DNA of 64,000 nt, taken from NCBI GenBank assembly GCA_026182355.1, contig JAPFBL010001617.1, positions 4,561,001-4,625,000 on the forward strand, given 5' to 3'. This document shows, one piece after another, positions 1,984 through 62,985 of this stretch. A program made the translations under genes and the position numbers. Source of the stretch: Hermatobates lingyangjiaoensis. Lineage: Eukaryota; Arthropoda; Insecta; Hemiptera; Hermatobatidae. Below the pieces are notes generated by a model. That model searched no databases and had not been told where the DNA came from. It was given only the letters and a program-made list of their open reading frames with translations. Position 1 is the stretch's first letter, and every line of letters begins with the position of its first letter.

Positions 1984-2590
1984 GTAATTTTCCTCTCGAA
2001 ATCTTGGAAATTCCTTCAATAGTTCCGATTTTGTATTAATTAATTGATACTTCCAGAGTTTTGAAGAGGCCATACTGGGACCACAGTAATCTACACCTCA
2101 AGTGAATTGGGTCAAATAATATTACTTCATCTCTTTCCACCCGACTTTGATTCAGGCGGCAGGACAGCACTGCGTCCATTACTGTTTGATAACCTTAGTA
2201 TTTTAGCCTATGATTTTTCAATTCTAAAGTTTGGAATGACGTTAAATATACTAAAAACGAAAAAAATATACTTTACTTCACATTATTTTGTTTATTAATG
2301 GATATAGTTTATAAATAAAAACTACAACATATACTGAAGCACTTTTAATGTACCAAACTAGTAATATTAAAGAGCTCTTAAGAGATATTGATTTGAGGTC
2401 TACGTCGTAGGACACCATTCGACCATGACCTTACATTCTAGCGCAGAAAATTAGAAATAGTCATTCTAATTAAACTTTTATAGAGATGGAATTTGACAAA
2501 GTGCCAAATCTTGACCTCTTCTGTTGTTCATACTTTTTGCATTAAAATGTCTTTTTTTTTGTAAACATTTTGTAATTCATTTAGGTACAA
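1984..2590. other. AT-rich DNA, nothing recognised
   Basis: No repeat family from elsewhere in the window and no convincing reading frame is seen here; the 63-residue plus frame at 2107 has no recognisable features. Confidence 0.4.
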
Positions 2591-3700
2591 CTAGCAAATG
2601 TGCTCGTCTTTGACGGAATCAAAAATTGGATGATACATGGTTTTCCAAAATATCATTAGAAATTATAGAATAGTAGAAAATGTCATTATTAGTACAATGT
2701 TAAGCAAATGACTCTGTATATACTACATTAGCTGTCTGTCCTTCAGGTTCATGGTAGAACAAAGAGTTGGAACCTCTGACTCTTGGGCAAGAAAACTATA
2801 GTTGACTATGTGAGAAAAACTTGGTGTCACTCGCTTCAATTCCTGAGGTAGATAGAGTTTCCCCTTGCGACTTAGTTACCATCATTGCGAAACATACACT
2901 GTCGGGACATTGCAATCGTTTGGATGGAAACGGATAGTGGCTCGGAATCAAAGGTATACGTGGGATATACACACTCCCCAGTATCACACCCAGTCATGAT
3001 GTCCGCATCTATGGCATATCTGTGCAAAGCTCGAACTCAGAGTCGTGTCCCGTTGCACTCACGTTTCTTAACATGAAGTCTGTTACTGCTACTAAATCGC
3101 AGCATGATTGGTACTCCTACTTTAAGTTTTTACTGATGAGCAGGAACTGCTTCCTCATCACTAATCATTCACTCTACTGACTTGCAAGTTCTTTCTTCGG
3201 CTTGATATAGCGTAAGAACTTGTTTGTTGATTTTCCTGCCTGTTCGTAGTAAGCGTTGAGAATTGCTCACTTACAAAGCCATTAATTCTGAATAGATAGT
3301 ATATCTTGAACTCTGGGAAACACCTCTCAATAAGCTCAAATACGCAATATATTCATTTAAGCAAATGGAATTAAAATCAACTCAATACCTACTTGCTACA
3401 CCTGTATATTTTCAAAATAAACATGTCTGTGAAGTTAGCAAAATACAGTTTAAACGTCCATAACTTCGCTTCTATGTTGAATTTCTAACCCATTCAGAGC
3501 ATACAATTTAAGTTAAACATATACAAATCTACTGTCAGTTTCGTCTTGATATGTCTTATGGTGGCTGAATTTACTTGTGACAAAATTTTGCAGACAAACC
3601 GATAAACCAACAGACAGAAATTTTTCTAAGGGTGGATTCGGAAAATTTGAAATGAGTCAGTTTTAAGCAACGTACAGACAAAATCTTTCTTTTATTTATA
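2591..3700 (-). mobile_element. Helitron copy H1, truncated
   Basis: On the minus strand the element ends with a Helitron-type 3' terminus: TTGATTCCGTCAAAGACGAG, then CACATTTGCTAG followed by T (CTAG at 2594-2591). Its 5' end lies in a (TA)n tract near 3700, after TAAATAAAAGAAAG. Inside, a non-coding 5' segment (about 3380-3690) is shared with H2, H3 and H4, and the C-terminal part of the helicase is decayed (2780-3165). At 1.1 kb it is far shorter than an autonomous Helitron and lacks the Rep domain, so it is a deleted copy. Confidence 0.75.
2780..3165 (-). pseudogene. Helitron Pif1-type helicase C-terminal fragment (H1)
   Basis: Read on the minus strand from about 3165 downwards, with frameshifts, the translation follows the Helitron helicase C-terminus: KLKVGVPIML, then CNGTRL with HRYAIDADIMTG, then VYIPRIPLIPSHYPF, KRLQCP, CFAMMVTKSQGETLS and finally FFSHSQL. 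The FAM-x-KSQG block is the conserved late helicase motif of Pif1/Helitron proteins. The open part (2796-2987) is 63 residues; the region upstream has lost its frame. It is a dead gene piece. Confidence 0.8.
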
Positions 3701-10518: not shown

Positions 10519-10545
10519 CTGATGATAAACACTAAGTGTTCGAAA
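10519..10545 (+). ncRNA. Hammerhead-like core, family B, solo copy
   Basis: CTGATGA, one extra T, then AAACAC-TAA-GTGTTC (stem-loop), then GAAA and CGCA. The same core, with perfect stem GAACAC/GTGTTC and GAAACGCG, is in the palindrome at 22.0 kb. The order CUGANGA / stem II / GAAA is the hammerhead-ribozyme signature; the extra base between CUGANGA and the stem is non-canonical, and I did not identify a cleavage site or stem III. Confidence 0.5.
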
Positions 10546-11059
10546 CGCATTGTATAATTAAATCGTTGTGGTGACGACTTAATGTATTTTTCTTCAGTAA
10601 TCACTCTTATTTTCGAACAAACATCAGTTGTTCATACTAATTAGAATAATTTAAACTGAGAGTTTCTAAATTTTAACACTTATATATATTTAAAATTGGT
10701 AGCAATCCTACTTTGGTACGGTCTACACTATACATAGTGTATATGCTTGAATAATTAAAAGATAGCATTTTGGTGTAATCCTTATTTAAGAAGATTATGT
10801 TTGGACCGGTAGATGATCCAACGATTGATTGAAAAAATGTATGCATTACATAATACGGTAGTTTTCAAGTCAGTTACTACCTCCTAGCTTACAAAAATTA
10901 AAGTTGAGTCTGCATTGAAAAGAAGTTCCATTATCATACAATTTGTTTGGAATACTTGGTGATTGCTCAGGATAACCGCACTATGGAAGGTAAGCGACAG
11001 GGGTAGGCGGGTCGTCATGCCCTGACACGATTCATTCTGCTTCAAAATAGGTACGGATT
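10546..11059. other. AT-rich DNA, nothing recognised
   Basis: No gene or repeat beyond the tail of the preceding core. The 75-residue minus frame starting at 11111 runs into the neighbouring palindrome and has no domain. Confidence 0.4.
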
Positions 11060-11243
11060 TCTTTATTTTTGTATAAAAATATTTCACATAAACACGTGAA
11101 ATAACAATCAATGATCAAACTACAATAAGAAAATGGGAAAACAAGACTAAGATCTTTCAACCGTAACAAGAGGTCTTCGTCAGAGTCAAAAATCCAACAG
11201 ATCTTAGTCTTGTTTTCCCATTTTCTTATTGTGGTTTGATCAT
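11060..11243. repeat. Foldback P1: Penelope terminal repeat, family A
   Basis: Two 45-base arms, 11111-11155 and 11199-11243, are inverted copies differing at very few positions (ATGATCAAACYACAATAAG ... AAGACTAAGATCT). The 43-base loop holds a family A hammerhead-like core on the minus strand (11183-11155). Outside the left arm lies TTTCACATAAACACGTGAAA, the hairpin tail that also borders the 23.9 kb palindrome. The arm sequence is the 3' end of the Penelope element at 20.05-21.93 kb. Confidence 0.8.
11155..11183 (-). ncRNA. Hammerhead-like core, family A (in P1)
   Basis: On the minus strand: CTGACGA, A, GACC...loop...GGTT, GAAA, then GATCTTAGTC. One base differs in the loop region from the copies at 20.1, 21.9 and 24.0 kb. 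Confidence 0.5.
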
Positions 11244-11296
11244 TTATTTTTGTATGTGTAGATGTAAACTTTGTGAATTCTGTTTCTGTATATGTA
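11244..11296. other. Spacer
   Basis: Short AT-rich spacer between P1 and an R1rep copy. Confidence 0.4.
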
Positions 11297-12625
11297 AAAA
11301 TCTGGAGTGGCCTGCACTCAACTTTACTATAAGCAAACTTAATATCAAACTTCTTGGGTATATAATATATAATGTCTCATTTAAGCATAATGTACAAATC
11401 TAAATGGGAGATGTTTACTAGTCTTTCATTCCCCAGGTAATACAGATAGTGATTGATGAACTTATCAATATATAAGCTTATTTTTGTACATCACACAGCT
11501 GATGAAAATAATGTCATTAGTATAACTACAGCAGTAATAAAATTTTTGAAAAGCCAAAGTGAACATTTCTTAATACGAAATATTCTCCTACAAGAGAACA
11601 TGACTTTTCTTCAAATAGCCAGTGGATTCCTTACATCGTTCACTTGACCTCCTTCTACATTGAATATTTAAGTCAAATTTTCAAATTTAAAACAAGAAAA
11701 TACTCTTATTTTCTCTGAAAAACCCGAAGTAAAAATGTCGTTTCAAGATAATTTATAATTAAGGATGTACGATAATAAAATTTATTAATCTTCAACGAAA
11801 AGATTTCAATTTTGAATTATGTTCAACATTTGTGGTCTTTTAAGTATAGAAGTATTATACTGGGAAATTTATGGCTCCTTAGCATTTAATGAAATCATTT
11901 TCCTTCCCCTTTGTCAAAAAAAAAAAATCATATATAACAAATTTCTCTGAGTGAGAAACCTTTTTTCCTGCGTCTTGTACTTTATTACAAGAATTTTTTC
12001 ATGAATTTTTTATAAATTGCTAATTTTGTGTTACGTTTTTGGTCAAATTTTCATGATTTTTTAATGAGCCGTTTACAGAAATCGTACTATAACGCCCCTT
12101 AGAAGAATGTAATTTTAAAAAAATTATCTTAACTCATTCTCCACATAATGCTCTATCTCTCGGCATAGTTTAATTTTGATCCGTGAAACGGAATGGCTTG
12201 TATTGCTCTCACAGGCTTTGATATTGAATAATAAGTCAAAAATTTTATATTTTATTGAAAACACAGTATTTTTCCTTGCTTTAAAAATTTGAATATATTT
12301 TTCGTTTATTGCATTTGTAACCCCAAATACATGACAAAATTTCAGAACTCTAAAATTAGCTGTTTAGGAGAAAAAAAATGTTCTCTAAAAACCGGTTATT
12401 GACCACAAAAAAGTGACCATTTTTGTGTAAAATATCAACTTGATCTATCAAAGATTCTGGACCGTAGCATGGTAACAAGCAATGCTAACATACTCACCCA
12501 CACACAAACACACAGATATCATCGAAAAAACTTCATAAAACAACTTTGGGGACCTCAAATTTCGTCAAAAACTCGAGATGGAATTTTTCCACCATCACTA
12601 TACTTTACTTATAGAAAAGTAAAAA
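11297..12625 (+). repeat. R1rep copy, near full length
   Basis: Begins AAAATCTGGAGTGGCCTGCA and a TTTACTATAAGCAAAC hairpin, ends CTATACTTTACTTATAGAAA with AGTAAAAAG. Ordered internal blocks are shared with the other copies: CATTTAAGCATAATGTA, GAACATGACTTTTCTTC, GCCGTTTACAGAAATCGTAC, CCGTGAAACGGAATGGCTTG, and a CACCCACACACAAACACAC tract near the end. No coding frame is conserved between copies. The terminal hairpins and 1.3-1.9 kb length suggest a non-autonomous DNA element. Confidence 0.7.
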
Positions 12626-17575: not shown

Positions 17576-18133
17576 GGAAGCTAATTGTACAAAAGTCCCA
17601 CTATATTCCAGTTCCCTAGGTTAAGGGAAATTAATGTTAATTAATTAACAAATTACCTACGATGATACTATTAGAAAAAACTACATCAAAAACAAGATTT
17701 CGAGCAAGCCCAGGAAGTGGGTCCAATTGCTTATGATATGGTAAAACTATATCATTTGACACAGAATGGGTTTCCATAACAGCATTGGAGAACATTTTTT
17801 TAGCATTCTTCAAAGCTTTGATTATATAAGTGGCGGGGTATTTTAATCAGCTAGCAATAGAAGTTAAGTTATTAATTTCATCATTAAGGCATTATGGAGA
17901 GCAAACTCTTAAAGCCCTCAGAAACATATGTCTAAAAACTTAACACCCTTTAAAATACCTCTCTTGACTCCATCCATTCTCAATACATCAACAGATGTAT
18001 TACATGTTTTTGTATGAGTGAGACTGTGATGAAACTACTTGTATTGGTTGAAAAATTGGAGTTACATTACTGATTTTTTTATTGTGGTTTAGACCACTAT
18101 TATTATTTCACGTGTTCACTGTGAAATCTTATC

Positions 18134-18298: not shown

Positions 18299-18322
18299 TT
18301 TCGGTCTTCCTATACCATCCTT
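18299..18322 (-). ncRNA. Truncated hammerhead-like core, family D
   Basis: On the minus strand: AAGGA, T, GGT-loop-ACC, GAAA, CGTTGG. The CTGANGA half is cut off exactly where the (TA)n tract starts. The remaining layout matches families A and B. Confidence 0.4.
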
Positions 18323-18325
18323 ATA

Positions 18326-18395
<70 letters not shown>

Positions 18396-18491
18396 GCAGA
18401 TTCAATAATATATCGACCGTTTGATAGAACAGGTGTGTTCTCTAATCGGGATTCGGTCAACCTAATATATATATATATATATATATATATA
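18318..18491. repeat. (TA)n tracts with a 44-base hairpin between them
   Basis: Two (TA)n tracts (about 18322-18394 and 18466-18491) enclose a segment, 18415-18458, with nested complementarity: GACCG/CGGTC outside and AGAACA-GGTG-TGTTCT inside. The insert may be another small structured element in a (TA)n target. Confidence 0.6.
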
Positions 18492-18567
18492 CGTATATAT
18501 TATTGAAAATGACACCAAATTTAGCTGATACCTGTTTCTTAACAAGTTTCTCAATTTTTCTAAATAA

Positions 18568-19925
18568 CACTCTCGTCTTTATAAATAAAATAATGATTTT
18601 GTCTGTACATTGCTTAGAACTGACTCATTTCAAGTTTTCTTTACGTTTCATACATTGGAGAAACCGAATCCACCCTTAGAAAAATTTCTGTCCGTTTGTC
18701 GGTTTGTCCGCAAAACTTTGTCACAGGTAAACTCAGCTACCATAAGACATATAAAGCTGAAACTTTTACAGTAGATTTGTGTAGGTCTAACTTAAAATAT
18801 AGGCTATGAATTGATTGGAAATTCAACGTAGAAGTGAAGTTATGGACGTTTAACGCAAAAATGTTTGTCACAAGTAAACTCAGCCACCATAAGACATAGC
18901 GAGCTGAAACATTGACACTGGATTTGTGTGTGCCTAACTTAAAATATGGGCTCTAAATAGATTATTAATTCAATACAGAAGCGAAGTTATGGGGCTTTTA
19001 GCTGTATTTTCCTAACTTCACAGACAAGTTTGTTTTGAAAATACACAGGTGTGGCAAGTAGGTATTGTTAGTTGATTTTAATTTCAATTGAGCACATGAA
19101 TATATTGCGTATTTGACATCATTGAAATGGTGTTTCACAGAGTTAAGGATGTACTATCTATTGAGAATAAATGTTTTGTAAACGAGCAATTCTCAGCCCT
19201 TAATATGAACAGGCATGAGAAATCAACAAACAAGTTCTTACGCTATATGAAGCCGAGGAAAGAACTTACAAGTCAGTAAAGAGATTGGATTAGTGATGAA
19301 GAAGCAGTTCATTATCTAATTGAATTTCTTGACTCTGAATTTATTTCTCCTGGACTGCCTGCTCATGAGTAAAAACTTAAAGTAGGAGCACCAATGATGC
19401 TGCAATTTATAGCAGTAACAAATTTCATGTTACGAAACATGAGTGACCCAAAAACTGTGCAACGGGACACGACTCTGAGTTCGTGCTCTACACAGATATG
19501 CCATAGAGGCGGACATAATGACTGGATGTGGTATTGGGGAGTCTTCCGAACCACTGTCTGTTTCCATTCAAATGATTGCAAGGTCCCCTCAGAGTCTATT
19601 TCGCAATGATGTTAACTAAGTCGCAAAGGGAGACTTTATCTAACGCAGGAATTCAAGTTAGCGAAACCAAGTTTTTCTCACATGGTCAACTGTAGTTTAC
19701 TTGCTCAATAGTCAGAGGTTTCAACTGATTGTTCTTCCATGAACCTGAAGGACAGACAGCTAATGTAGTGTATACAGAGGCATTTGTTTAACACTGTACT
19801 AATAATGGTGTTTTCTACTATTCTATAATTTCTAATTATAGTATTAGTATAATACTATAATTGATATGTTGGAATACCAAGTATAATAGAATTTTGATTC
19901 CGTCAAAGACGGGTACATTTGCTAG
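18568..19925 (+). mobile_element. Helitron copy H2
   Basis: Runs from near TCTTTATAAATAAAATAATG (about 18576; the exact 5' base is uncertain) to GACGGGTACATTTGCTAG at 19925 followed by T, the same 3' end as H1. The 5' part (18590-19100) is the non-coding block shared with H1, H3 and H4 (CGAATCCACCCTTAGAAAAA; AAACTCAGCCACCATAAGAC, which occurs twice in tandem here). The rest is a decayed helicase C-terminus. Internally deleted and non-autonomous. Confidence 0.75.
19320..19720 (+). pseudogene. Helitron helicase C-terminal fragment (H2)
   Basis: Plus-strand reading across frameshifts: EFLDSEFISPGLPAHE, a stop, KLKVGAPMML, LRNMSDPKTVQRDTT, CSTQICHRGGH, then by frameshift a KRLQ-like and FAMMLTKSQRETLS region and SETKFFSHGQL. 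These are the ordered motifs of the Helitron helicase C-terminus (LNSL-x-PSGLPPH, LKVG-PIMLLRN, KSQGxTL, CFSHGQLYV). The long open frames on both strands here are by-products of this decayed gene. Confidence 0.8.
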
Positions 19926-20088
19926 TTATTTATAAAAATTGAGAAACTTGTTAAGAAACAGGTATCAGCTAAATTTGGTGTCATTTTCAATAATGTGTGT
20001 CAAAGAAGGACTGCTACCAAAATTTACGAATATATATATATATATATGATCAAACCACAATAAGAAATGGGAAAACAAGACTAAGATC

Positions 20089-20117
20089 TTTCAACCGTAA
20101 CAAGCGGTCTTCGTCAG
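20089..20117 (-). ncRNA. Hammerhead-like core, family A (left Penelope end)
   Basis: Minus strand CTGACGA, A, GACCG-CTTGTTA-CGGTT, GAAA, GATCTTAGTC, about 170 bases beyond the ORF stop in the element's 3' region. Penelope-like elements are known to carry hammerhead motifs in their terminal repeats. Confidence 0.55.
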
Positions 20118-20290
20118 AGTCAAAAACCCAACTGAACACTAGATGCAGAAAACATCTGGTGAGGAGTTGAGAAGAGTGGGAGGGAAGAGTGGTATTTTAA
20201 AAGGGTGAAAGCACAGGAAAGGACTAATGTCCAGAAAGGGATGTTTGGGGAAACAAAGGAGTACAGTAAGAAAAAGTAAAAAACTATCCG

Positions 20291-21136
20291 CTAGCTGTCA
20301 ACCCTCTTTGAAGAGGCTATTGCCCTCGTGACGAAAGTATCAAGTTTGAAGAGACCGTTACTAATGTTTATAATATTAGATCTATTAAATTTAATTAGAG
20401 ACGATTCAATAATATTTCTTAACAACATTGATTTTTCATAGGTAATAAATTTAGCTCCTGTCCAATCAATATGATGATTTTCATTTTTTATATGCAAGAA
20501 TAAGGCACTACTGTTTTCCTGTCTACTTACGTTATATTGGTGTTGTTTTACACGTGTTTTTAATGATTTACCAGTTTGACCAATATAAATTTTATGGCAA
20601 TTTTTGCACGGAATTTTATAAATACCAGCGGACTCCAATTCGCTTGGAGAGTTTTTTATTAACATATTACCCACGTTATTGCGATTAGAAAACACTATAT
20701 TAAAATCAAGTTGTTTGGCTAATCTTGGAAGGGGGTCCAATGATTCGTGGTATGGCAAAACTATAGAATTTGATAATAAAAGGGGCTCTTTTGAAGTATT
20801 AGAGAAAGTTTTTTTAGCACCCTTCAAAGCTAAATCGATATAAGAAGAGGGGTATTTTAATGAAAGGGCAATTGACCTAATGTTATTAATCTCTTCATTA
20901 AGAAATTCTGGAGAGGAAACTCTTAAGGCTCTCAAAAACATATTTCTAAAAACAGAAATTTTAACATTTTTTGGATGCGATGAATAAAAATGAACGTATG
21001 CAAGTACATTCGTAGGTTTTCTATATACACTAAAGCGTAACTCATTAGGTAACCTATGGATCAGGACATCTAAGAAGGGCAAATTACCACTTATTTCTTC
21101 TTCCATTGTGAATTTGATTGTCGGCACTAATTTCAT
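20291..21136 (-). pseudogene. Penelope-like polyprotein C-terminus (RT thumb + GIY-YIG), 5'-truncated
   Basis: A 281-codon open frame. Residues about 1-110 (VPTIKFTMEEEISGNLPFLD, VLIHRLPNELRFSVYRKPTN, VLAYVHFYSSHPKNVK) match the end of the Penelope reverse transcriptase, where IxFTxExE...LPFLDxxI...VYRKPT...YxxFxSxHP is typical. Residues about 175-225 (IYKIPCKNCHKIYIGQTGKS, LKTRVKQHQYNV) are the GIY-YIG endonuclease: KIYIG supplies the GIY/YIG strand, R in LKTRVKQH is the usual catalytic arginine, and CxxC precedes it. The RT catalytic palm lies upstream and is missing; the ATG used is an internal Met at the inversion junction. The frame ends normally (SKRVDS, stop). Cannot transpose alone. 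Confidence 0.85.
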
Positions 21137-21705
21137 TAAAATACCCCTCTTCTTATATCGATTTAGCTTTGAAGGGTGCTAAAAAAACTTTCTCTAATAC
21201 TTCAAAAGAGCCCCTTTTATTATCAAATTCTATAGTTTTGCCATACCACGAATCATTGGACCCCCTTCCAAGATTAGCCAAACAACTTGATTTTAATATA
21301 GTGTTTTCTAATCGCAATAACGTGGGTAATATGTTAATAAAAAACTCTCCAAGCGAATTGGAGTCCGCTGGTATTTATAAAATTCCGTGCAAAAATTGCC
21401 ATAAAATTTATATTGGTCAAACTGGTAAATCATTAAAAACACGTGTAAAACAACACCAATATAACGTAAGTAGACAGGAAAACAGTAGTGCCTTATTCTT
21501 GCATATAAAAAATGAAAATCATCATATTGATTGGACAGGAGCTAAATTTATTACCTATGAAAAATCAATGTTGTTAAGAAATATTATTGAATCGTCTCTA
21601 ATTAAATTTAATAGATCTAATATTATAAACATTAGTAACGGTCTCTTCAAACTTGATACTTTCGTCACGAGGGCAATAGCCTCTTCAAAGAGGGTTGACA
21701 GCTAG
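21118..21705 (+). pseudogene. Penelope-like polyprotein C-terminus, inverted second copy
   Basis: A 195-codon frame whose residues from about position 7 (LKYPSSYIDLALKGAKKTFS) are identical to the C-terminal 189 residues or so of the minus copy, including the whole GIY-YIG domain (CKNCHKIYIGQTGKSLKTRV) and stop. The first few residues (MSALI) come from the junction, read across antisense sequence of the other copy, so the start is not natural. The intact frame reflects youth rather than demonstrated function. Confidence 0.8.
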
Positions 21706-21878
21706 CGGATAGTTTTTTACTTTTTCTTACTGTACTCCTTTGTTTCCCCAAACATCCCTTTCTGGACATTAGTCCTTTCCTGTGCTTTCACCCTTTTAAA
21801 ATACCACTCTTCCCTCCCACTCTTCTCAACTCCTCACCAGATGTTTTCTGCATCTAGTGTTCAGTTGGGTTTTTGACT

Positions 21879-21907
21879 CTGACGAAGACCGCTTGTTACG
21901 GTTGAAA
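21879..21907 (+). ncRNA. Hammerhead-like core, family A (right Penelope end)
   Basis: CTGACGA, A, GACCG-CTTGTTA-CGGTT, GAAA, GATCTTAGTC; identical to the left-arm copy. The element stops 22 bases later at CCCAT against (AT)n. Confidence 0.55.
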
Positions 21908-21987
21908 GATCTTAGTCTTGTTTTCCCATATATATATATATATATATATCATTAGTTGTGCAATCCGTAATTGTGTGGTATTTACTC

Positions 21988-22155
21988 ATTCTGAGGTAAA
22001 ATGGATAAACCAACAAAAGTCTCCACACAAATGAAGTTTTATTCAACGCGTTTCGAACACTTTGTGTTCATCATCAGGAAGACAAAGTGTTCGAAACGCG
22101 TTGAATAAAACTTCATTTGTGTGGAGACTTTTGTTGGTTTATCCATTTTACCTCA

Positions 22156-22159
<4 letters not shown>
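21988..22159. repeat. Palindrome P2 with family B core
   Basis: Arms 21988-22065 and 22082-22159 (78 bases each) appear perfectly complementary, with a 16-base centre (GTTCATCATCAGGAAG). Arms contain AAAATGGATAAACCAACAAA and TTCAACGCGTTTCGAACACT. The right arm ends directly in (TA)n (22158-22200). The centre belongs to one intact core on the minus strand; the other arm carries only the GAAACGCG half, so the palindrome is two inverted copies joined inside stem II. Confidence 0.85.
22051..22077 (-). ncRNA. Hammerhead-like core, family B (in P2)
   Basis: Minus strand CTGATGA, T, GAACAC-AAA-GTGTTC, GAAA, CGCGTTGAA. Six perfect base pairs in stem II. Confidence 0.55.
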
Positions 22160-22202
<43 letters not shown>

Positions 22203-23886
22203 TAAATTTATTATGAAATGAGTTTCATTTAAACCTAATACAGTGGTTGCAATTTTTTATGGCTAATATTGTGTCATACTAGAGTTCAAAGTTAGTATGT
22301 TCTACTAAAATGTCCATTGAGTTTACTTGAACCTTACTCCCAAGTACAGATATAAATCCTTGGTTGAGTGATCCCCGATTAATTGCCGTTTCGAAAGTAA
22401 GCTTGATTATTAACAGTGGGAATAACTGAACATATATAACAATTTCATTGAATTTTAGTTGTAATATAATAATAAATAAATAAAATAACAATCAACAAGT
22501 CTGACTGTTTGATATGTCTTGAGGATATTTGACGGAAATAGTCTATTCTGTGATAAAGAAACCCTTTTCTTTAGAGTAAATTGAATTTAATACAAAAAAC
22601 AGGTCCTAATTTTTTAACCCATTCTCCATGTGATTCTGAAACATTTAATTTTCTCTTTAAGTACGATCTTAATATTGATACTGAATTGTAAAAATTTGAT
22701 GAATTTCAAATATTGAAAGTGGCAAGATTAGGCTAAAAAAGAAAACTACTGAGTTTACCTGTAGTAGTCACTTGTCATCATCTACTTGAACAATTATTAA
22801 ATCTTCGTTACGACTGACAAATTAGATAATAGCCACATTCATTACAATCAATGACGAGATTAAATTTATTATTAATAAGCTAATACACTTGATACGCATA
22901 TAATGGTATACGTTAACTCATAGTGAAGTAGACTAGTACCACTCTAGATTTTTACACTTACCTTTCCCCAAGTTCAACTTAAAAATTACACATATTCAAA
23001 TGAACTTTTTCTCGCGCCAATATTAACCTATCGAAAAAGAATAGACCAGAGAAATTTTTGTTTCAGAATTTATTACGTCCGTATTATTTTCATTTAAATA
23101 ATTCCTCTAAACCACTAATACAAAATAGGCAAATTCAGAAAATCTACTGTTCATTCTGAAATACGGTGTCCTCGACATAACATTTAAAGTACTTCAATTT
23201 GATTATTAACAGTTCTTTCAATGTTTAGTGGATTTTTTCAAGTTGTTGCTGACAGCTTGTTAGTTAATATGTTTCTAAATAAATAAGTAAAAATACTGTA
23301 TATAAAAAGAAAAAAAAATGCCTGATTAAGAAGGCATTGATAGTTGAAATGGTTGGTCATGATATCGGGTATCTGGATATGAAGTCTGTTTAGTTTAGTA
23401 TAGAGTTCATTAATGAGAATACTATACCTGCACCCAGTATCTACCATGAATATTTTTTTCTTATCCTTGAATGTCTCTAACGGTTTACCTAGAGTGGCAT
23501 TACTTCTTTTTAAAAATTGATATATTGGCTTTAATACAGTTAATTTTAATTTTTTAATGTTGCTTTACTTTTAATTGATTAAATTTTTGCCAGCATTTTC
23601 GTACTGCTTAATAGCGAAAACCAAGGACACACTCAAAAACACGATAGGCTCAATCACTATATTTACTGACTATCTATACAGAAAAAGAAAATGAAGACAT
23701 CTTACACAAATCTGCTGTAAGACGCTATATTAACTTTCATATTACTTCATACTATAGTACAGTCATTTACCTCATTTAAACTAGTGATTAATTAACATGG
23801 GTGAGCAAAGAACAGTAATAATAGTAATATTTAACTTGAAAGGAATTTAATTTAATGTCTGGAAACATGTATATATATATATATAA
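22160..23886. other. (TA)n then AT-rich DNA, nothing recognised
   Basis: (TA)n continues to about 22199. The remaining 1.6 kb shows no repeat family or coding signal; the frames at 22279-22491 and 23238-23447 (minus) have no domain. A short (TA)n at 23869-23884 precedes P3. Confidence 0.4.
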
Positions 23887-23963
23887 AAAGATTTCACATA
23901 AACACGTGAAACAACAATCAATGATCAAACCACAATAAGAAATGGGAAAACAAGACTAAGATC

Positions 23964-23992
23964 TTTCAACCGTAACAAGCGGTCTTCGTCAG
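23964..23992 (-). ncRNA. Hammerhead-like core, family A (left arm of P3)
   Basis: Same sequence as the Penelope cores at 20.1 and 21.9 kb. Confidence 0.5.
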
Positions 23993-24008
23993 AGTTGGGT
24001 TTTTGACT

Positions 24009-24037
24009 CTGACGAAGACCGCTTGTTACGGTTGAAA
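24009..24037 (+). ncRNA. Hammerhead-like core, family A (right arm of P3)
   Basis: Inverted partner of the 23964-23992 core. A transcript through P3 could instead fold into one long hairpin, which would compete with the ribozyme-like fold. Confidence 0.5.
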
Positions 24038-24075
24038 GATCTTAGTCTTGTTTTCCCATTTCTTATTGTGGTTTG

Positions 24076-24078
<3 letters not shown>

Positions 24079-24129
<51 letters not shown>
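24079..24129. repeat. (TA)n microsatellite
   Basis: Uninterrupted (TA)n between palindromes P3 and P4. Confidence 0.9.
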
Positions 24130-24130
<1 letters not shown>

Positions 24131-24131
<1 letters not shown>

Positions 24132-24258
24132 AATAAGCAGTGACACATAAACTGAAACACAACAAAGACTCACTTTTCAATATTTCGACCGTAATGGCGG
24201 TCGAAATATTGAAAAGTGAGTCTTTGTTGTGTTTCAGTTTATGTATCACAGCTTATTT
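24131..24258. repeat. Palindrome P4 with truncated family E core
   Basis: Arms 24131-24191 and 24198-24258 (61 bases, few mismatches, all near the outer ends) enclose the loop TAATGG. The centre reads TTTCGACCG-TAATGG-CGGTCGAAA, that is a stem II hairpin followed on both strands by GAAA and TATTG. As in P2, the CTGANGA half is lost at the join. Outside the right arm is CTGTCCTGCCGGACCG, a small hairpin, and then (TA)n. Confidence 0.8.
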
Positions 24259-24299
24259 TAATTGTTATCTGTCCTGCCGGACCGTTTTTCGTTTATCAT

Positions 24300-24301
<2 letters not shown>

Positions 24302-24358
<57 letters not shown>
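24302..24358. repeat. (TA)n microsatellite
   Basis: Long (TA)n tract bounding the palindrome cluster on the right. The reading frames through it are artefacts of the repeat. Confidence 0.9.
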
Positions 24359-24362
<4 letters not shown>

Positions 24363-26631: not shown

Positions 26632-28294
26632 CAAAAAAAAAAATCTGGAGTGGCCTACACTCTACTTTACTATAAGTAACTTAATGTCAAATTTCTAGAG
26701 TATATAAAACATAACGTCTCATTTAAGCATAACGTAAACATCTAAATGGGATATAATTATTAGCCTGTCATTCCTGAGGTAGTACAGATATTGATTGAAG
26801 GACATATCAATTTATAGGCTTATTTTTCTACATCACAAATAATTTATTATTTGCAAATAATTTCATTAGTATAACTACAGCAGTAATAACATTTTTGAAA
26901 AACCAAAGTGAACATTTCTTGAAACGAAATAGTATCCTACAAGAGAACATGGCTATTGTTCAAATAGCCAGTAGATTTCTTACATCGTTTACTTGACATC
27001 CTTCTACATTGAATATTAATGTAAAATTTTCAAATTTGAAACAGTAAAATACTCTTTTTTTCTCTGAAAAACTTCTTAAACAGCGAAGAAAATGTTGTTT
27101 TAAGGTGATTTGTTAATTAAAGATGTACGATAATTACAGTTATTAATCTCTAAACGAAAGATTTATATTTGGAATTATCTTTTACATTTTTGGTTTTTAA
27201 CAGAATTATTATACTGGGAATTTTATGGCTTCTTAGTATTTAATAAGACCATTTTCCTTCCCCTTTGTCAAATAACATATATACGATTTTTTTTTTAATG
27301 AGTGTTATCATTTACCTGCACAGTATTATTCCTCTTACATCTCTGATAAGTCAATAATATATTTTCATTTTTCCATTGGAAACATCAATTTTATCTCAGT
27401 GGATTCGCTCAAAAGATTTCTAAGTCAATGTAAACAATGTAAAAAAATACAAAAAATTCGACAAGTATAGCAGGTGATCTCTTAGTCTAGGATAAACAAA
27501 GAGTTTTTATATCGTTATTGCTCTTTCCCGTAATTGAAATATCATGATTTTTTTTTTATGAATTGCTAATTTTTTGTTCCATTTTTGGTGAAATTTTCAT
27601 TATTTTTTAATCAGCCGTTTAGCGTCAAAAAAACATTTTCTGAAAACAGAAATCGTACTGTTACGCCCCATTAGCGAATGTAATTTTGAAAAAAAATATC
27701 TCAACTGATTCTACACATAATGTTCTATTTATAGGCATAGTTTCATTCTTGTCCGTCAAACAGTATGGCTTGTATCACTCTCACAATGTTTGAGATTGAT
27801 TTATAAGTCAAAATTTGTACATTTTATTGAAAAAAAAATATTTCCCGTTGTTTTAAAATTCTGAATATATTTTTCGTTTGTTTCATTTGTAACCTCAAAG
27901 ATAATGTCAAAATTTCAAAACTCTAGGGTTATCAGTTTAGGAGAAATAAAAGTTTAAAAAAAAACGGTTTTTGGCAAAAAAAGTGACTTTCCCATCATGC
28001 ATAATTCTTCGCAAACAATAGGGATCTTCCTCCCTATGAGGCCCATTTTTGTGTAAAATATCAACTTGATCCATCAAAGATTCTGGACCGTAGCTTGGTA
28101 ACAAGCAATGCTAACACACGCACCCACCCACGCACCCACCCACCCACCCACCCACCCACCCACACAAACACAGACATCATCGTAAAAACGTCATAAAACG
28201 ACTTCTGGGACCTCAAAACATGTAATTCCGTCAAAATCTCGAGATCGAATTTTTTCACGATCACTATACTTTACTTATAGTAAAGTAAAAAAAA
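26632..28294 (+). repeat. R1rep copy, full length (1.66 kb)
   Basis: Best-preserved member. Begins AAATCTGGAGTGGCCTACAC plus TTTACTATAAGTAA and ends GATCACTATACTTTACTTAT followed by AGTAAAGTAAAA. A (CACC)n stretch at 28118-28165 lies near the end. No conserved frame; the GWVGGW-type minus frame at 28061-28264 is the microsatellite. Confidence 0.75.
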
Positions 28295-31000: not shown

Positions 31001-31548
31001 TTCTTATATTCATTCCAATTTAAATTATTCAGTGATCCTTTCTCTCCACGCGCAAGCTGTACAACTCAGCAAATTAACAAAAAAAATAAAGTTTAGACCA
31101 TTGGACAGGGATATTAGAGTACACTGAAATAATTCTTTTATTGGTAACATGACGGAGGGTATATTGACTATAGGACTAAAAAGGGACAGTCGAATGACTG
31201 CGATACCATCCATTTCATAATGTAAAATGAAAAATAATAAACTATTACATTGCATGTTAAAAATGTTTCAGGAATGAAATTTAACAAAAATGTCCAGTAT
31301 TGACATGCTGCCACTCTGAATATATGAAGCTAAAGGAGAGACCGTTACTAAGCAGTAAAAAATTACTCTAGCAAATACGAGGAACCAACAATTTTACTTA
31401 ACTTAATAGTTTTTTTAATTGAATATTTAAATTTGTAACACTAGGTTAGTTTTGACTGGTATATGCTTTCTCAATCAAATGATAAAAAAGGTTTCAATAA
31501 AAAAGAAACATCGACTTCAAAAGTTTCATACAATATCAGTATTATATT
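31001..31548. other. AT-rich DNA, nothing recognised
   Basis: The 76-residue minus frame (31255-31025) has no domain. Confidence 0.4.
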
Positions 31549-31655
31549 CTGACAAAGACCACTTGTTTTGGATGAAAGATTTTAAGTAATTTTTCTGATT
31601 TCTTACTGTGGTTTTAGACGTTGATTTTTGTTTCACGTGTTTATTATAAAAATAT
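31549..31655 (+). repeat. Penelope terminal fragment, family A, diverged
   Basis: CTGACAA, A, GACCACTTGTTTTGGAT, GAAA (31549-31577), then TTTCTTACTGTGGTTT and TTGTTTCACGTGTTTATTAT. This is the complete order of the family A tail (core, TTCTTATTGTGGTTTGATCA, TTTCACGTGTTTATGTGAAA) with substitutions. An old solo copy ending in a short TA run. Confidence 0.65.
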
Positions 31656-33264: not shown

Positions 33265-33313
<49 letters not shown>

Positions 33314-35495: not shown

Positions 35496-36982
35496 TGTTT
35501 TACAGTTTTGGTCTTTTATAGAATTATTATACAGGGAATATTATGTCTTTCTAGTATTTAATAAAAATCACTTTTCTTTCTCATATATTTCCATTTATTC
35601 TGAGGGAGAGTTAACTTTTTCCTGCGTGGTGTACTCTGTTATAAGGTAGCTTTAAATGTATATAGAGAAACAATTTTTTTTAGTAATTATCCAGTTTTGT
35701 ATACTGAAATCAAAGTCGGCTATTCAGTATAATTTAAAACTTTTATAGTTGGAAGCTTGAAATTTTTAAAAATTATTGATATGAACTATTAGACTAGAAT
35801 AGTGAAAAAACTGAATATTTGTCAACAAACATAACCAACTCTCTTTCTTGAGGAAAGAGTCCATTTCTCACACTTCAATATTATCCAATGATACTATGAT
35901 TCATAAACACAATAAAATTTTCATCTGATATTAAGTTTTTGTTCAAGGGTGCAATCTGTACATCGATTAATTTTGAGAAAAAAATCCATCATACCATTGA
36001 AAGCAATAGAGATTGGTGTTTATTGGCAGTGATTTTTTACATGTAAAAATATTATTCGTCTTATATCTCATATATGTCAATAAATTATTTAAAATTTTCC
36101 ATTATAAACATGAATTTTATTTCAGTGGATTCACGCAAAAAATTTCTGTCAATGTAAACATTGTAAATAAATATCAATAAAATTGACAGGTATAGTAGGT
36201 AATCGGTTAGTCTAGGATAAGTAATCAGTTTTTATCGCATTATTGTTCTTTGCCGTAATTGAAATTACGAGAAAATTTTTTTTATAAATTGCTAATTTTT
36301 AGTTGAATTTTCGGAAAATTTTCATGGTTTTTTAATGATCCGTTTAGCGTCAAAAAAACATTTTCTGAAAATAGAAAATGTACTGTAACGCCCTTCTGGT
36401 GAATGTAATTTTGAAAAAATGTATCTCAACTAATCCTTCACAGAATGTTCCATTTTTAGGTATAGTTTCATTCTGATCCGTCAAACTGTGAGACTTGTAC
36501 CGCTCTCACAAGCTTTTCCGGTTGAATTATAAGTCAATTTTTTTTTCATTTTATTGTAAATAAATATTTTTCGTTGTTTTAAAAATCTGAGGTTATTTTT
36601 CATTTGTTGCTTTTATAGCCTCAATGATAATGCCATAATTTGAAGACTCTAGGATTAGTAGTTTAGGGGGAAAAAAATATAGTCTAAAACATCTATTTGG
36701 CAAAAAAAATTACTTTCCCCTCATGCATAATTGCTCCCAAACAATAGGCCTCATCTACGCTATGAGGTCGATTTTTGTGTAAAATATCAACTTGATTGAT
36801 CAAATATTCTGGACCATAGCGTTTCCACAAACTTTGGACACAAACTCACTCACCCACACACAGATATCATCGAAAAAACTTCACAAAACGACTTCTGGGA
36901 CCTCAAAATATGTAATTTCGTCAAAATCTAGAGATCGACTTTTTTCACGATCACTATACATTACTTATAGTAAAGTAAAAAA
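35496..36982 (+). repeat. R1rep copy lacking the first segment
   Basis: Plus-oriented from an internal block (TTTTGGTCTTTTATAGAATT) to the family end (CACGATCACTATACATTACT, TATAGTAAAGTAAAA). It abuts the preceding inverted fragment, so the 5' segment of this copy may have been inverted. Confidence 0.7.
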
Positions 36983-38091: not shown

Positions 38092-39953
38092 AAAATTTGG
38101 AGTGGCCTACACTCAACTTTACTATAAGTAAACTCAATATAAAACTTCTGGGGTATATAATATATAATGTCTCATTTAAGCATAATATAATCGTTACAGC
38201 AGTAATAACATTTTGAAAAGCCAAAGTAAAATTTGCTTATACGAAATAATTTCCTACAAGAGAGCATGGCTTTTGCTCCAATAGCCTGTGGACCTCTTAC
38301 ATAGATCATCTGACGTCCTTCTACATTTAATACTTAAGACAAATTTTCCCATTTAGAAATTGAAAATATTTTTAGTATTTTAAAAACATTACCAAGTTTT
38401 CGTCTGAAATGTCAAAAACATGTAAGAAATAATGTCGTTTTCAGATAATTTTTAATTTAAGATGTAGGATAATTTCATCTATTATTTTTAAAAGAATTTT
38501 TTTTTAATTCTGAATAATGTTCTACATTTTTCATCTTTTATCAAATTATTTTACTGGAAATTTCATAGCATGCTAGAGTTTTTTAAAAAACTCACTTTTC
38601 TTTCCATTTGTGAAAAACCATAAAAACCCAATTTACTCTGAGGGAATGTTATTTCTTCCCACGTACTCTACTCTATTATAAGTTCGCTGTAAATGTATAT
38701 TGGGAAAAAATATATTGGTAATAAGCCACCTTTTCTGTATAATTTTAAATTTAAAAGCTGGAAGCTTGAAATTTTTAAAAATAATGGTATGAACTATTAG
38801 ACTAGCATAGTGAAAAAACTGGAAATTAGACAAAAACATAGAAACCCTTCTATAGGACGTACAAGTTCATTCCAAAAACTTCAATATTACCCAATAATAA
38901 TGTAATTCATAAACGCAAAAAAATCAGCATCTGATATTAAGCTTTGTAGAATTGTGCAACATATAGATTGATTAGAACAATTTGTTAGACAAACCCATCA
39001 TACTATAAAAAGGATCAGAAATTATATGCTTCATATGCTCTAATGTTGTTGACTTTTTACATATACAAATTTTATTCTTCTTACTTCACATATAAGTCGT
39101 TAAATCATTTAAAAATTTTCATTATACCTCTAAACATTATATTATATTGGTGAATTCACTGAGAAAATTCTATGTCAATGTAAGCAATGCAAACAATATA
39201 AAAAAATTGACAAGTATAGCAGGTGATCCCTTAGTCCAGGATAAACAAACAGTTTTTATAGCTTTATTGCTCTTTGCAGTAATTGAAATTTCATGAGTCT
39301 TTTTTCATGTAGTAAATTGCTAATTTTGTGTTCCATTTTTGGTCAAATTTTCATTATTTTTTAATGAGCCGTTTAGAGTCAAAAAAACATTTTCTGAGAA
39401 CAGAAATCGTACTTTAACGCCCCTTTGGTGTATGTAATTTTGAAGAAAATTATCTCAACTCATTCTCCACATAATGTTCTAGTTTTAGGCATGGTTTCAT
39501 TTTGATACGTCAAACGGTATGGCTTGTATCGCTCTTACAATCTTTGAGATTGAATTATAAGTCAACATTTTTACATTTTATTGAATAAAAATATTTCCCT
39601 TTGATTCTGAATATATTTTTCGTTTATTCCATTCGTAACCACAAAGACAATACCCAAATTTCAAAACTCTAGAGTTAGCAGTTTAGGAGAAAAAAATGTT
39701 TTCTAAAAAACGGTTTTTGGCAAAAAAAGTGACTTTCCCGTCATGCATAATTCTTCCCAAACAATAGGGATCATCTACACTATGGGACCTATTTTTGTGT
39801 CAAATATCAACTTGATCCATCAAAGATTCTGGCCGTAGCGTGGTAAAAAGCAATGCTAACACACACACACTCACCCACACACACAGACATCATTGAAAAA
39901 ACTTCATAAAACGACCTTTGGGACCTCAAAACATATGATTCCGTCAAAATCTG
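38092..39953 (+). repeat. R1rep copy, longest (about 1.86 kb), end truncated
   Basis: Starts AAATTTGGAGTGGCCTACAC plus TTTACTATAAGTAAAC, passes through all internal blocks and the CACACACACTCACCC tract, and stops at CCGTCAAAATCT before the terminal hairpin. The sequence then changes abruptly to more GC-rich DNA. Confidence 0.7.
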
Positions 39954-59359: not shown

Positions 59360-59800
59360 ATAAAGGAAAAATCAACGATTGAGGTTAAGCCCAGGAGCAG
59401 ATCTACCGCCCAGAAGACTAATAAGTGCTTCTTCTGAAGCTCTCAGAGTGACTCGAATTAGTCTCATCAATCTGCCTCAGGACTTGTACACGGAAACAGT
59501 CATTGAAACTGAGTCCGTGTGAACCGGCATGAGTAACAACGGGAAGGTCAGTGCATTTGCCAACGGACGACCTGTGATTATTCATACGCAGGCTTAGCTT
59601 GGTGGATGCTAAACCCACATAAAAGGAATAACACTGGGTGCAATCCAAACGGTAAACGCAGTTACCAGAGGTACAAGAGGTCTTGTGAGAGATAGGGTAG
59701 GTGCGTTTACTATGGAAAGAGGTAATTCTTCGGTTATGAGGTCTAAGTCGTTACATTATATGAATCTGATCACTAAATGGATAGGTGCGTCAACTAAATA
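59360..59800 (-). pseudogene. Penelope-like GIY-YIG fragment, second lineage
   Basis: Minus-strand reading from about 59700: THLPYLSQ or, in the better frame, TYPISHKTSCTSGNCVYRLD, CTQCYSFYVGLASTKLSLRM, NNHRSSVGK, THAGSHGLSFNDCFRVQVLR, ending near SESFRRSTY then stop. The C-x-x-C before FYVG, the arginine in LSLRMNNHR and the H-x-x-x-GLSF block are typical of the GIY-YIG domain in Penelope-like elements. It is clearly different from the 20-21 kb element and starts without its RT. Open for 76 codons from the internal Met (59648). Confidence 0.75.

Positions 59801-62931: not shown

Positions 62932-62985
<54 letters not shown>
62880..62985. repeat. (TATC)n / (TA)n microsatellite
   Basis: ATCTATCTATC units (62886-62934) grade into (TA)n to 62985. 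Confidence 0.9.

Follow-up and report, generated by a model that had tools for sequence, protein, structure and literature searches.

The insertion of Penelope-like elements is still largely open, and the inverted end repeats (pLTRs) and optional tail of these elements have so far been described without a rule. The closest described systems, as presented in the parts of the two papers considered here, are PAc, a Poseidon element of Anolis carolinensis, and the Penelope elements of Adineta vaga. PAc cuts and extends both strands at AT-rich sites in vitro; its tail is bounded by two RNA start sites, a dimer is predicted, the start site is not homologous to the cut DNA, and a hammerhead lies at the junction of the pLTR and the open reading frame (ORF; Frangieh et al., 2024, PMC11167929). 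The A. vaga elements carry GIY-YIG, pLTRs, an inverted pLTR, a 31-bp tail on one inverted pLTR, head-to-head junction palindromes, target duplications of 8-10 bp and an initiator-like word in the pLTR, and a preference for simple AT-rich targets has already been published for Penelope (Arkhipova et al., 2013, PMC3846280). The window analyzed here, a 64,000-nucleotide stretch of the Hermatobates lingyangjiaoensis genome (contig JAPFBL010001617.1, positions 4,561,001-4,625,000, forward strand), contains at 18322-24359 a cluster of palindromes set among tracts of alternating TA, or (TA)n. Judged from their sequence, these palindromes are head-to-head inverted pLTRs of Penelope-like elements with hammerhead-like cores, and a Penelope-like element fits the combination of a GIY-YIG domain, inverted end repeats, tails, and target duplications.

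The present families resemble PAc in their AT-rich two-strand targets, in two starts that bound the tail, in a start site without homology to the cut DNA, and in a core of hammerhead type; on the other hand, PAc is an in vitro system, and the parts of PMC11167929 considered here state no rule that ties the two starts of one insertion together. The A. vaga elements are alike in GIY-YIG, inverted pLTRs, a one-sided tail, palindromes, short duplications and AT-rich targets. However, as far as the parts of PMC3846280 considered here go, A. vaga has few copies and its tail is called optional, whereas the present elements show tens of thousands of exact tail words, occur mostly as solo pairs, and nearly always combine a short with a long tail. 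This comparison suggests that the landing-pad idea is already known in kind and that the near-obligate pairing of short and long tails is the candidate new element. The tens of thousands of short insertion products suggest a rule in which every insertion combines a short start with a long one, and both this rule and the target test ((TA)n and AT-rich sites) can be checked in the in vitro system already published.

Most of the counts below concern family A, which includes a pair with 799-bp arms in the cluster as well as the palindromes P1 and P3, both of which are solo end-repeat pairs. Metazoan retrozymes are likewise short elements with hammerhead-type cores, but in the part of PMC7229834 considered here they are direct repeats that yield RNA circles, whereas 59 of the 72 pairs of family A neighbours within 60 bp lay head to head, eight tail to tail, and just five on the same strand. 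Membership in the retrozyme class (tandem direct repeats bounded by hammerheads) was rejected on this last count. Family B neighbours within 3 kb, taken from the first 100 of 4,573 places, were head to head in 25 of 27 cases, on the same strand in two, and never tail to tail.

Tail lengths, inner ends, and joints

The source genome comprises 909,949,117 bases in 1,629 contigs. A 32-mer from the family A tail occurs in it exactly 32,728 times, a 31-mer from family B 4,573 times, and the long end of family A followed by TA repeats 2,186 times, while the controls (for the 32-mer, the reversed pattern) gave 0 in each case. Sampling was carried out around the first 100 listed exact 32-mers, of which 73 were taken in and 27 left out, so family A is over-represented. 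Short and long ends alike contain the 32-mer, which should favour neither, and copies that end before it are excluded. The window, 30 loci, and 20 ten-kb stretches formed a first sample of 331,936 non-redundant bases, and the addition of 11 short stretches gave a larger sample of 340,197 bases.

Copies of family A stop either at a short end, GATCAT or GATCATTGAT, or at a long end near CTTTTTATA, which lies 33-37 nt beyond. The larger sample held 59 head-to-head family A pairs, with 25 short/long, 25 long/short and no short/short combinations; the remaining pairs were extra-short/long (five), long/long (two), short/extra-short (one), and extra-short/short (one). When only pairs made of short and long ends were counted, 50 of 52 were discordant, against an expectation of 49.9% (P about 3e-13). 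Pairs in which both copies were at least 90% identical to the query comprised 43 discordant pairs, one long/long pair, and five with an extra-short end. One extra-short end was cut by the end of a stretch, and others belonged to old copies.

A palindrome search that was independent of family returned 58 entries, some of them overlapping, and 20 of these were not family A. Fourteen of the 20 had TA tracts on both sides (within about 100 nt), and their tails differed by 27-42 nt in 13 cases, the lone exception having tails of 27 and 100 nt; several of these 14 palindromes represent one family, and a minority have proved to be Penelope-like. Among the other six were two pairs of family B that, by their match to the palindrome P2 (weak in one case), combine a short end with a long one. 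The difference of about 35 nt between the short and the long tail of a pair suggests that reverse transcription has two coordinated starts, which may lie on a single RNA and would be primed from both strands of the target. No rule pairing one short with one long tail was found in titles and the beginnings of abstracts, a search that does not establish its absence from print.

The inner ends of the copies were examined in the 104 arms of the first 52 pairs. Sixty-one arms began at query positions 1-11, including 21 that began exactly at TCAGTT, which we take to be an initiator-like word, and the remaining inner ends fell within or past the core. The centres of the palindromes mostly varied between insertions, some sharing a few bases and others holding an insert as long as 47 nt, and the palindrome as a fixed mobile unit was ruled out since most centres differ. 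The centre of P3 recurred in C1 stretches 2117000 and 260313 (with one base changed) and, mirrored, in 2100200. Three family A pairs (C1 stretches 1744600, 721332, and 962236) had in common a GTCTT/AAGAC joint within the core region, which gives the impression that the joining was steered by short complementary words. In the 50 pairs whose arms overlapped sufficiently, 17 of 142 variants were common to both arms, whereas 500 shuffles averaged 1.2 and reached 7 at most; for rare variants the count was 10 of 110, against 0.25 and a maximum of 4. These shared variants fit one template, closely related templates, or conversion between arms.

Self-priming, in which a copy serves as its own primer and template by folding back at its end, is the proposal published for A. 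vaga, read there from an antisense template (Arkhipova, 2013; PMC3846280, in the parts considered here). It would account for the head-to-head order, the perfect arms, the central hairpins, and the variants common to the arms. However, it predicts neither the pairing of a short with a long tail (50 of 52 pairs), nor varied joints and inserts at the centres, nor inner ends that differ between arms, and we consider it an improbable origin for the present palindromes.

TA tracts and AT-rich sites as probable insertion targets

The first sample contained 152 family A matches, of which 105 (at least 90% identity and 35 nt, with a short or long end) were used for the analysis of flanks and 47 were omitted. 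An end was scored as TA-flanked when the next 30 nt included at least 10 alternating T/A bases. Alternating TA followed 71 of the 105 ends (36 of 51 short and 35 of 54 long), compared with 19.5 expected at A+T-matched sites, and the maximum in 100,000 A+T-matched simulations was 36. The background, 1.2% of 271,582 positions, retains the tracts of other families, which makes the comparison conservative. The initial annotation had proposed that several Penelope-like families insert preferentially in (TA)n and that the tract serves as a landing pad. Family A flanks are indeed far richer in TA than random sites, and other families share the same anatomy with TA flanks, as 14 of the 20 non-A palindromes had a tract on both sides (the A+T-matched comparison covers family A).

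Readable flanks were available for 57 family A pairs, with TA on both sides in 34, on one side in 14 and on neither side in 9. Target duplications were sought as shared words of at least 8 bp, other than plain TA, within a few bases of both ends. They were present in 7 of the 9 insertions without TA, 3 of the 14 with TA on one side, and 3 of the 34 with TA on both sides, whereas shuffled flanks gave means of 1.4, 1.2, and 2.5 and maxima of 6, 4, and 8 for the same classes (shuffles can retain true partners); the excess of shared words is thus confined to the non-TA class. Of all 50 pairs of the first sample, 9 had such a word, against 2.3 expected. The seven duplications at non-TA sites are near-flush, measure 8, 8, 11, 12, 12, 14 and 22 bp, and are AT-rich without a TA tail, the longest lying in a TATATG-type repeat. 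At one site without TA, GATCAT is followed directly by GTTATTATAT. Both the TA enrichment and these duplications argue for the landing-pad proposal, which is supported for family A in the form of (TA)n together with AT-rich sites, and which is likely to apply to the other families.

The tracts might instead be produced by the element, through slippage of the reverse transcriptase on a UA-rich start and the addition of TA tails. Such an origin would suit the fact that both outer ends are element 3' ends, that tracts often stand on both sides (34 of 57 insertions), and that the long end itself is CTTTTTATATA. However, no TA intervenes at the near-flush duplications of the 7 non-TA insertions, and there is no excess of shared words beyond the tracts, with 1 in 14 delimitable tract insertions against a null of 0.43 (maximum 3). 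Furthermore, at the insertion in C1 stretch 812933/1496 a long TA run lies beyond the target duplication, and it does so at just one of the two sides. Slippage is accordingly given a low probability, and the tract looks like a target rather than a tail. Random insertion followed by survival or expansion in TA-rich neutral DNA is doubtful as well: two diverged copies in the window (18075-18130 and 31548-31644) do lack clean tracts and the sampled stretches were chosen around family A copies, but the enrichment (71 against 19.5) holds at A+T-matched sites for copies whose identity to the query is 90% or more, and AT-rich DNA is preferred by the enzymes described in the parts of PMC11167929 considered here.

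TA overlaps had also been suggested as a means of priming. This suggestion was abandoned as a requirement, since identical family A end points occur at sites without TA, and overlap priming is therefore not needed; the rarer family A ends at which CCCAT meets ATAT could be primed by overlap. A search of the sampled sequence for empty alleles gave no clean case among the matches listed. The nearest case, L001:2735-2915, is an unbroken TA tract with border sequences that are also met next to family A insertions elsewhere in the sampled stretches, and it is not clean because two other repeats border the tract.

Proposed mechanism of insertion

Each palindrome probably represents a single Penelope-like insertion by two-sided target-primed reverse transcription from two coordinated starts, a reading derived from comparison of sequences. 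The endonuclease of the element would cut both strands of an AT-rich site, mostly (TA)n, a step to which the duplications and the family A enrichment point. Both freed 3' ends would then prime antisense copying of the element RNA from internal starts about 35 nt apart, each insertion using a short and a long start, as suggested by the tails. Both starts would be located on one RNA, and the simplest form of coordination would be that this RNA is gripped by an enzyme dimer. Most copies would proceed to the boundary TCAGTT just upstream of the core, the probable 5' end of the RNA, or stop within the core, consistent with the observed end points. The two copies would be joined head to head through a few shared or added bases, in keeping with the varied centres, and copies joined in this way would form a solo inverted end-repeat pair, that is, a palindrome around the ribozyme sequence. 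The less common long pairs, of which the 799-bp pair is an example, may start at a downstream repeat and stop inside the ORF, and the TA tracts between adjacent insertions may be remnants of landing sites. We are rather more hesitant, at slightly under even chances, about an obligate form of the two-start mechanism, in which a single RNA held by a dimer would give one short-start and one long-start copy, each primed by one strand of the cut target, be it (TA)n or an AT-rich site. The "optional" tail would then mark which strand took which start, and solo inverted pairs would be the default product.

Several observations weigh against the two-start mechanism. An extra-short end occurs in seven of the 59 pairs of family A, two further pairs are long/long, and the 799-bp pair itself combines a short with an extra-short end, making it an exception to the rule. 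The shuffled null for the non-TA insertions once reached 6 of 9, and 125 of the 142 arm variants are private to one arm. No start-site difference between the strands was seen with PAc, and coordinated starts are not reported in the parts of PMC11167929 considered here; in those of PMC3846280, the palindromes of A. vaga are explained by self-priming on an antisense template.

Coding regions, cores, and layout of the cluster

The inverted arms of the family A pair (20067-20865 and 21131-21929) are 799 nt long, 100% identical, and separated by 265 nt. The longer left copy (20046-21130, minus strand) ends short at GATCAT and contains an ORF at 20291-21178 (-), and the right copy (21131-21929, plus strand) has the extra-short end CCCAT and an ORF at 21118-21705 (+). 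A GIY-YIG domain was detected at the C-terminal end of the ORF in both arms, with 23.9 bits in the right ORF and 21.5 bits in the left, the latter falling below the cut-off of 22.6. A protein search returned 131 matches, and many of the 120 listed carry reverse-transcriptase domains. With respect to the Penelope-type reverse transcriptase, the window holds only the region past the main domain, and PF00078 is present in the homologues. Upstream continuation into the ORF was observed in only 11 of 170 family A matches. Viral contigs contained nothing that matched one exact family A core, one gapped core pattern, or the GIY-YIG protein, and a plasmid search was likewise without a match; these negatives carry little weight, as both collections scarcely contain eukaryote DNA. 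Elsewhere in the window, an ORF at 59418-59750 (-) includes a stretch, FYVGLAST, that appears GIY-YIG-like by eye and had no Pfam match.

The core motif follows the hammerhead consensus and was defined as CTGANGA, a stem II of at least four paired bases, and GAAA. It was found 102 times in the 340 kb scanned and once in the reversed sequence. Family A accounted for 75 matches, and the other 27 comprised about ten further stem II sequences in which pairing is kept, together with a few possible chance matches. The Rfam hammerhead models gave no match at the gathering score or at E ≤ 5, so the call rests on the motif and the cores are named hammerhead-like only; the Rfam matches below gathering, mostly to long-hairpin models such as microRNA families, were rejected. 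Full cores are present in both copies of the 799-bp pair and of P3, in one copy of P1, and in the left copy of P2, while P4 retains no more than the 3' half of a core, with the stem II loop at its centre. In C1 stretch 812933, family E is represented by a copy with full cores in both arms, and in C1 stretch 436952, family F by one with two full cores. The motif scan found no CTGANGA core in the fragment D or beside its relative in C1 stretch 552153. The lack of a ribozyme core in D and the half core of P4 correct the initial annotation. A lone family-B-like core, CTGATGATAAACACTAAGTGTTCGAAACGC, was noticed at 10519-10557 with no adjoining partner arm or TA tract.

Between 18322 and 24359, the cluster consists in succession of TA, D, TA, family F, TA, the family A pair, TA, P2 (family B), and TA, followed about 1.7 kb beyond the TA of P2 by TA, P3 (family A), TA, P4 (family E), and TA. 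The initial annotation named five elements, D, the 799-bp pair, P2, P3, and P4. All five were confirmed, and each of their ten outer edges adjoins a TA tract; D, described there as a truncated core, shows no core. Pure TA runs of at least 10 bp number 13 in the window, and 10 of them lie inside the cluster. Two of the three outside, 33267-33310 and 62934-62985, have none of the copies found for families A, B, E, and F next to them; the former, 44 bp long, lies within another repeat and is possibly an unoccupied tract.

D is a 69-bp fragment (18396-18464, minus strand) between TA tracts at 18322-18395 and 18465-18491. Its relatives in C1 stretches 552153 and 611113 run on into different sequence, and it is probably a tail fragment of another family. 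The family F pair (18499-20029) is an additional head-to-head pair absent from the initial annotation. Its left copy (18499-18568, minus strand, 70 nt) has the short tail end and a 99% inverted match to 19925-19994, and its right copy (19925-20029, plus strand) has a tail about 35 nt longer. The approximately 1.36 kb between the arms ends with a Helitron-like hairpin and CTAGT. This putative Helitron-like insert (about 18566-19926) has at its right end the hairpin CCGTC..GACGG followed by CTAGT, which we assume to be Helitron end features; a second such end lies at 2590-2616 (-), and parts of the insert repeat at 48.4-48.7 kb and 63.2-63.5 kb.

A TA tract at 20030-20047 separates family F from the family A pair, and another at 21928-21949 is common to this pair and P2. 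The inverted arms of P2 (21979-22069 and 22078-22168) are 95% identical with a spacer of 8. The left copy (21950-22077, minus strand) has the long tail and a full core at 22051-22077, the right copy (22078-22159, plus strand) has the short tail and starts within the stem II loop, and a TA tract follows at 22158-22199. P3 has inverted arms at 23921-23995 and 24006-24080 (100% identity, spacer 10), and its left edge reaches TA (23870-23885) only past its longer tail. Its left copy (23880-23995, minus strand) carries the long tail and a full core at 23964-23992, and its right copy (23993-24080, plus strand) the short tail and a full core at 24009-24037. The tract at 24079-24128 is common to P3 and P4. 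P4 has inverted arms at 24127-24191 and 24198-24262 (95% identity, spacer 6), with a short-tailed left copy (24127-24204, minus strand) and a long-tailed right copy (24185-24301, plus strand) that overlap at the centre of the palindrome and each hold a half core; the last tract is at 24302-24359.

Outside the cluster, the family A palindrome P1 (11063-11255) has its long tail on the left and its short tail on the right, without a TA tract, and its target duplication is TTATTTTTGTAT, at 11063-11074 and 11244-11255. The segment 17641-18130 is an older, diverged relative of the family A pair, with pieces in both orientations, a degraded core region and tail, and no clean TA flank. An interspersed repeat of several hundred bases occurs in at least four copies that are 60-82% alike, at 12113-12327, 27685-27899, 36410-36624, and 39439-39653 and in the neighbouring sequence.

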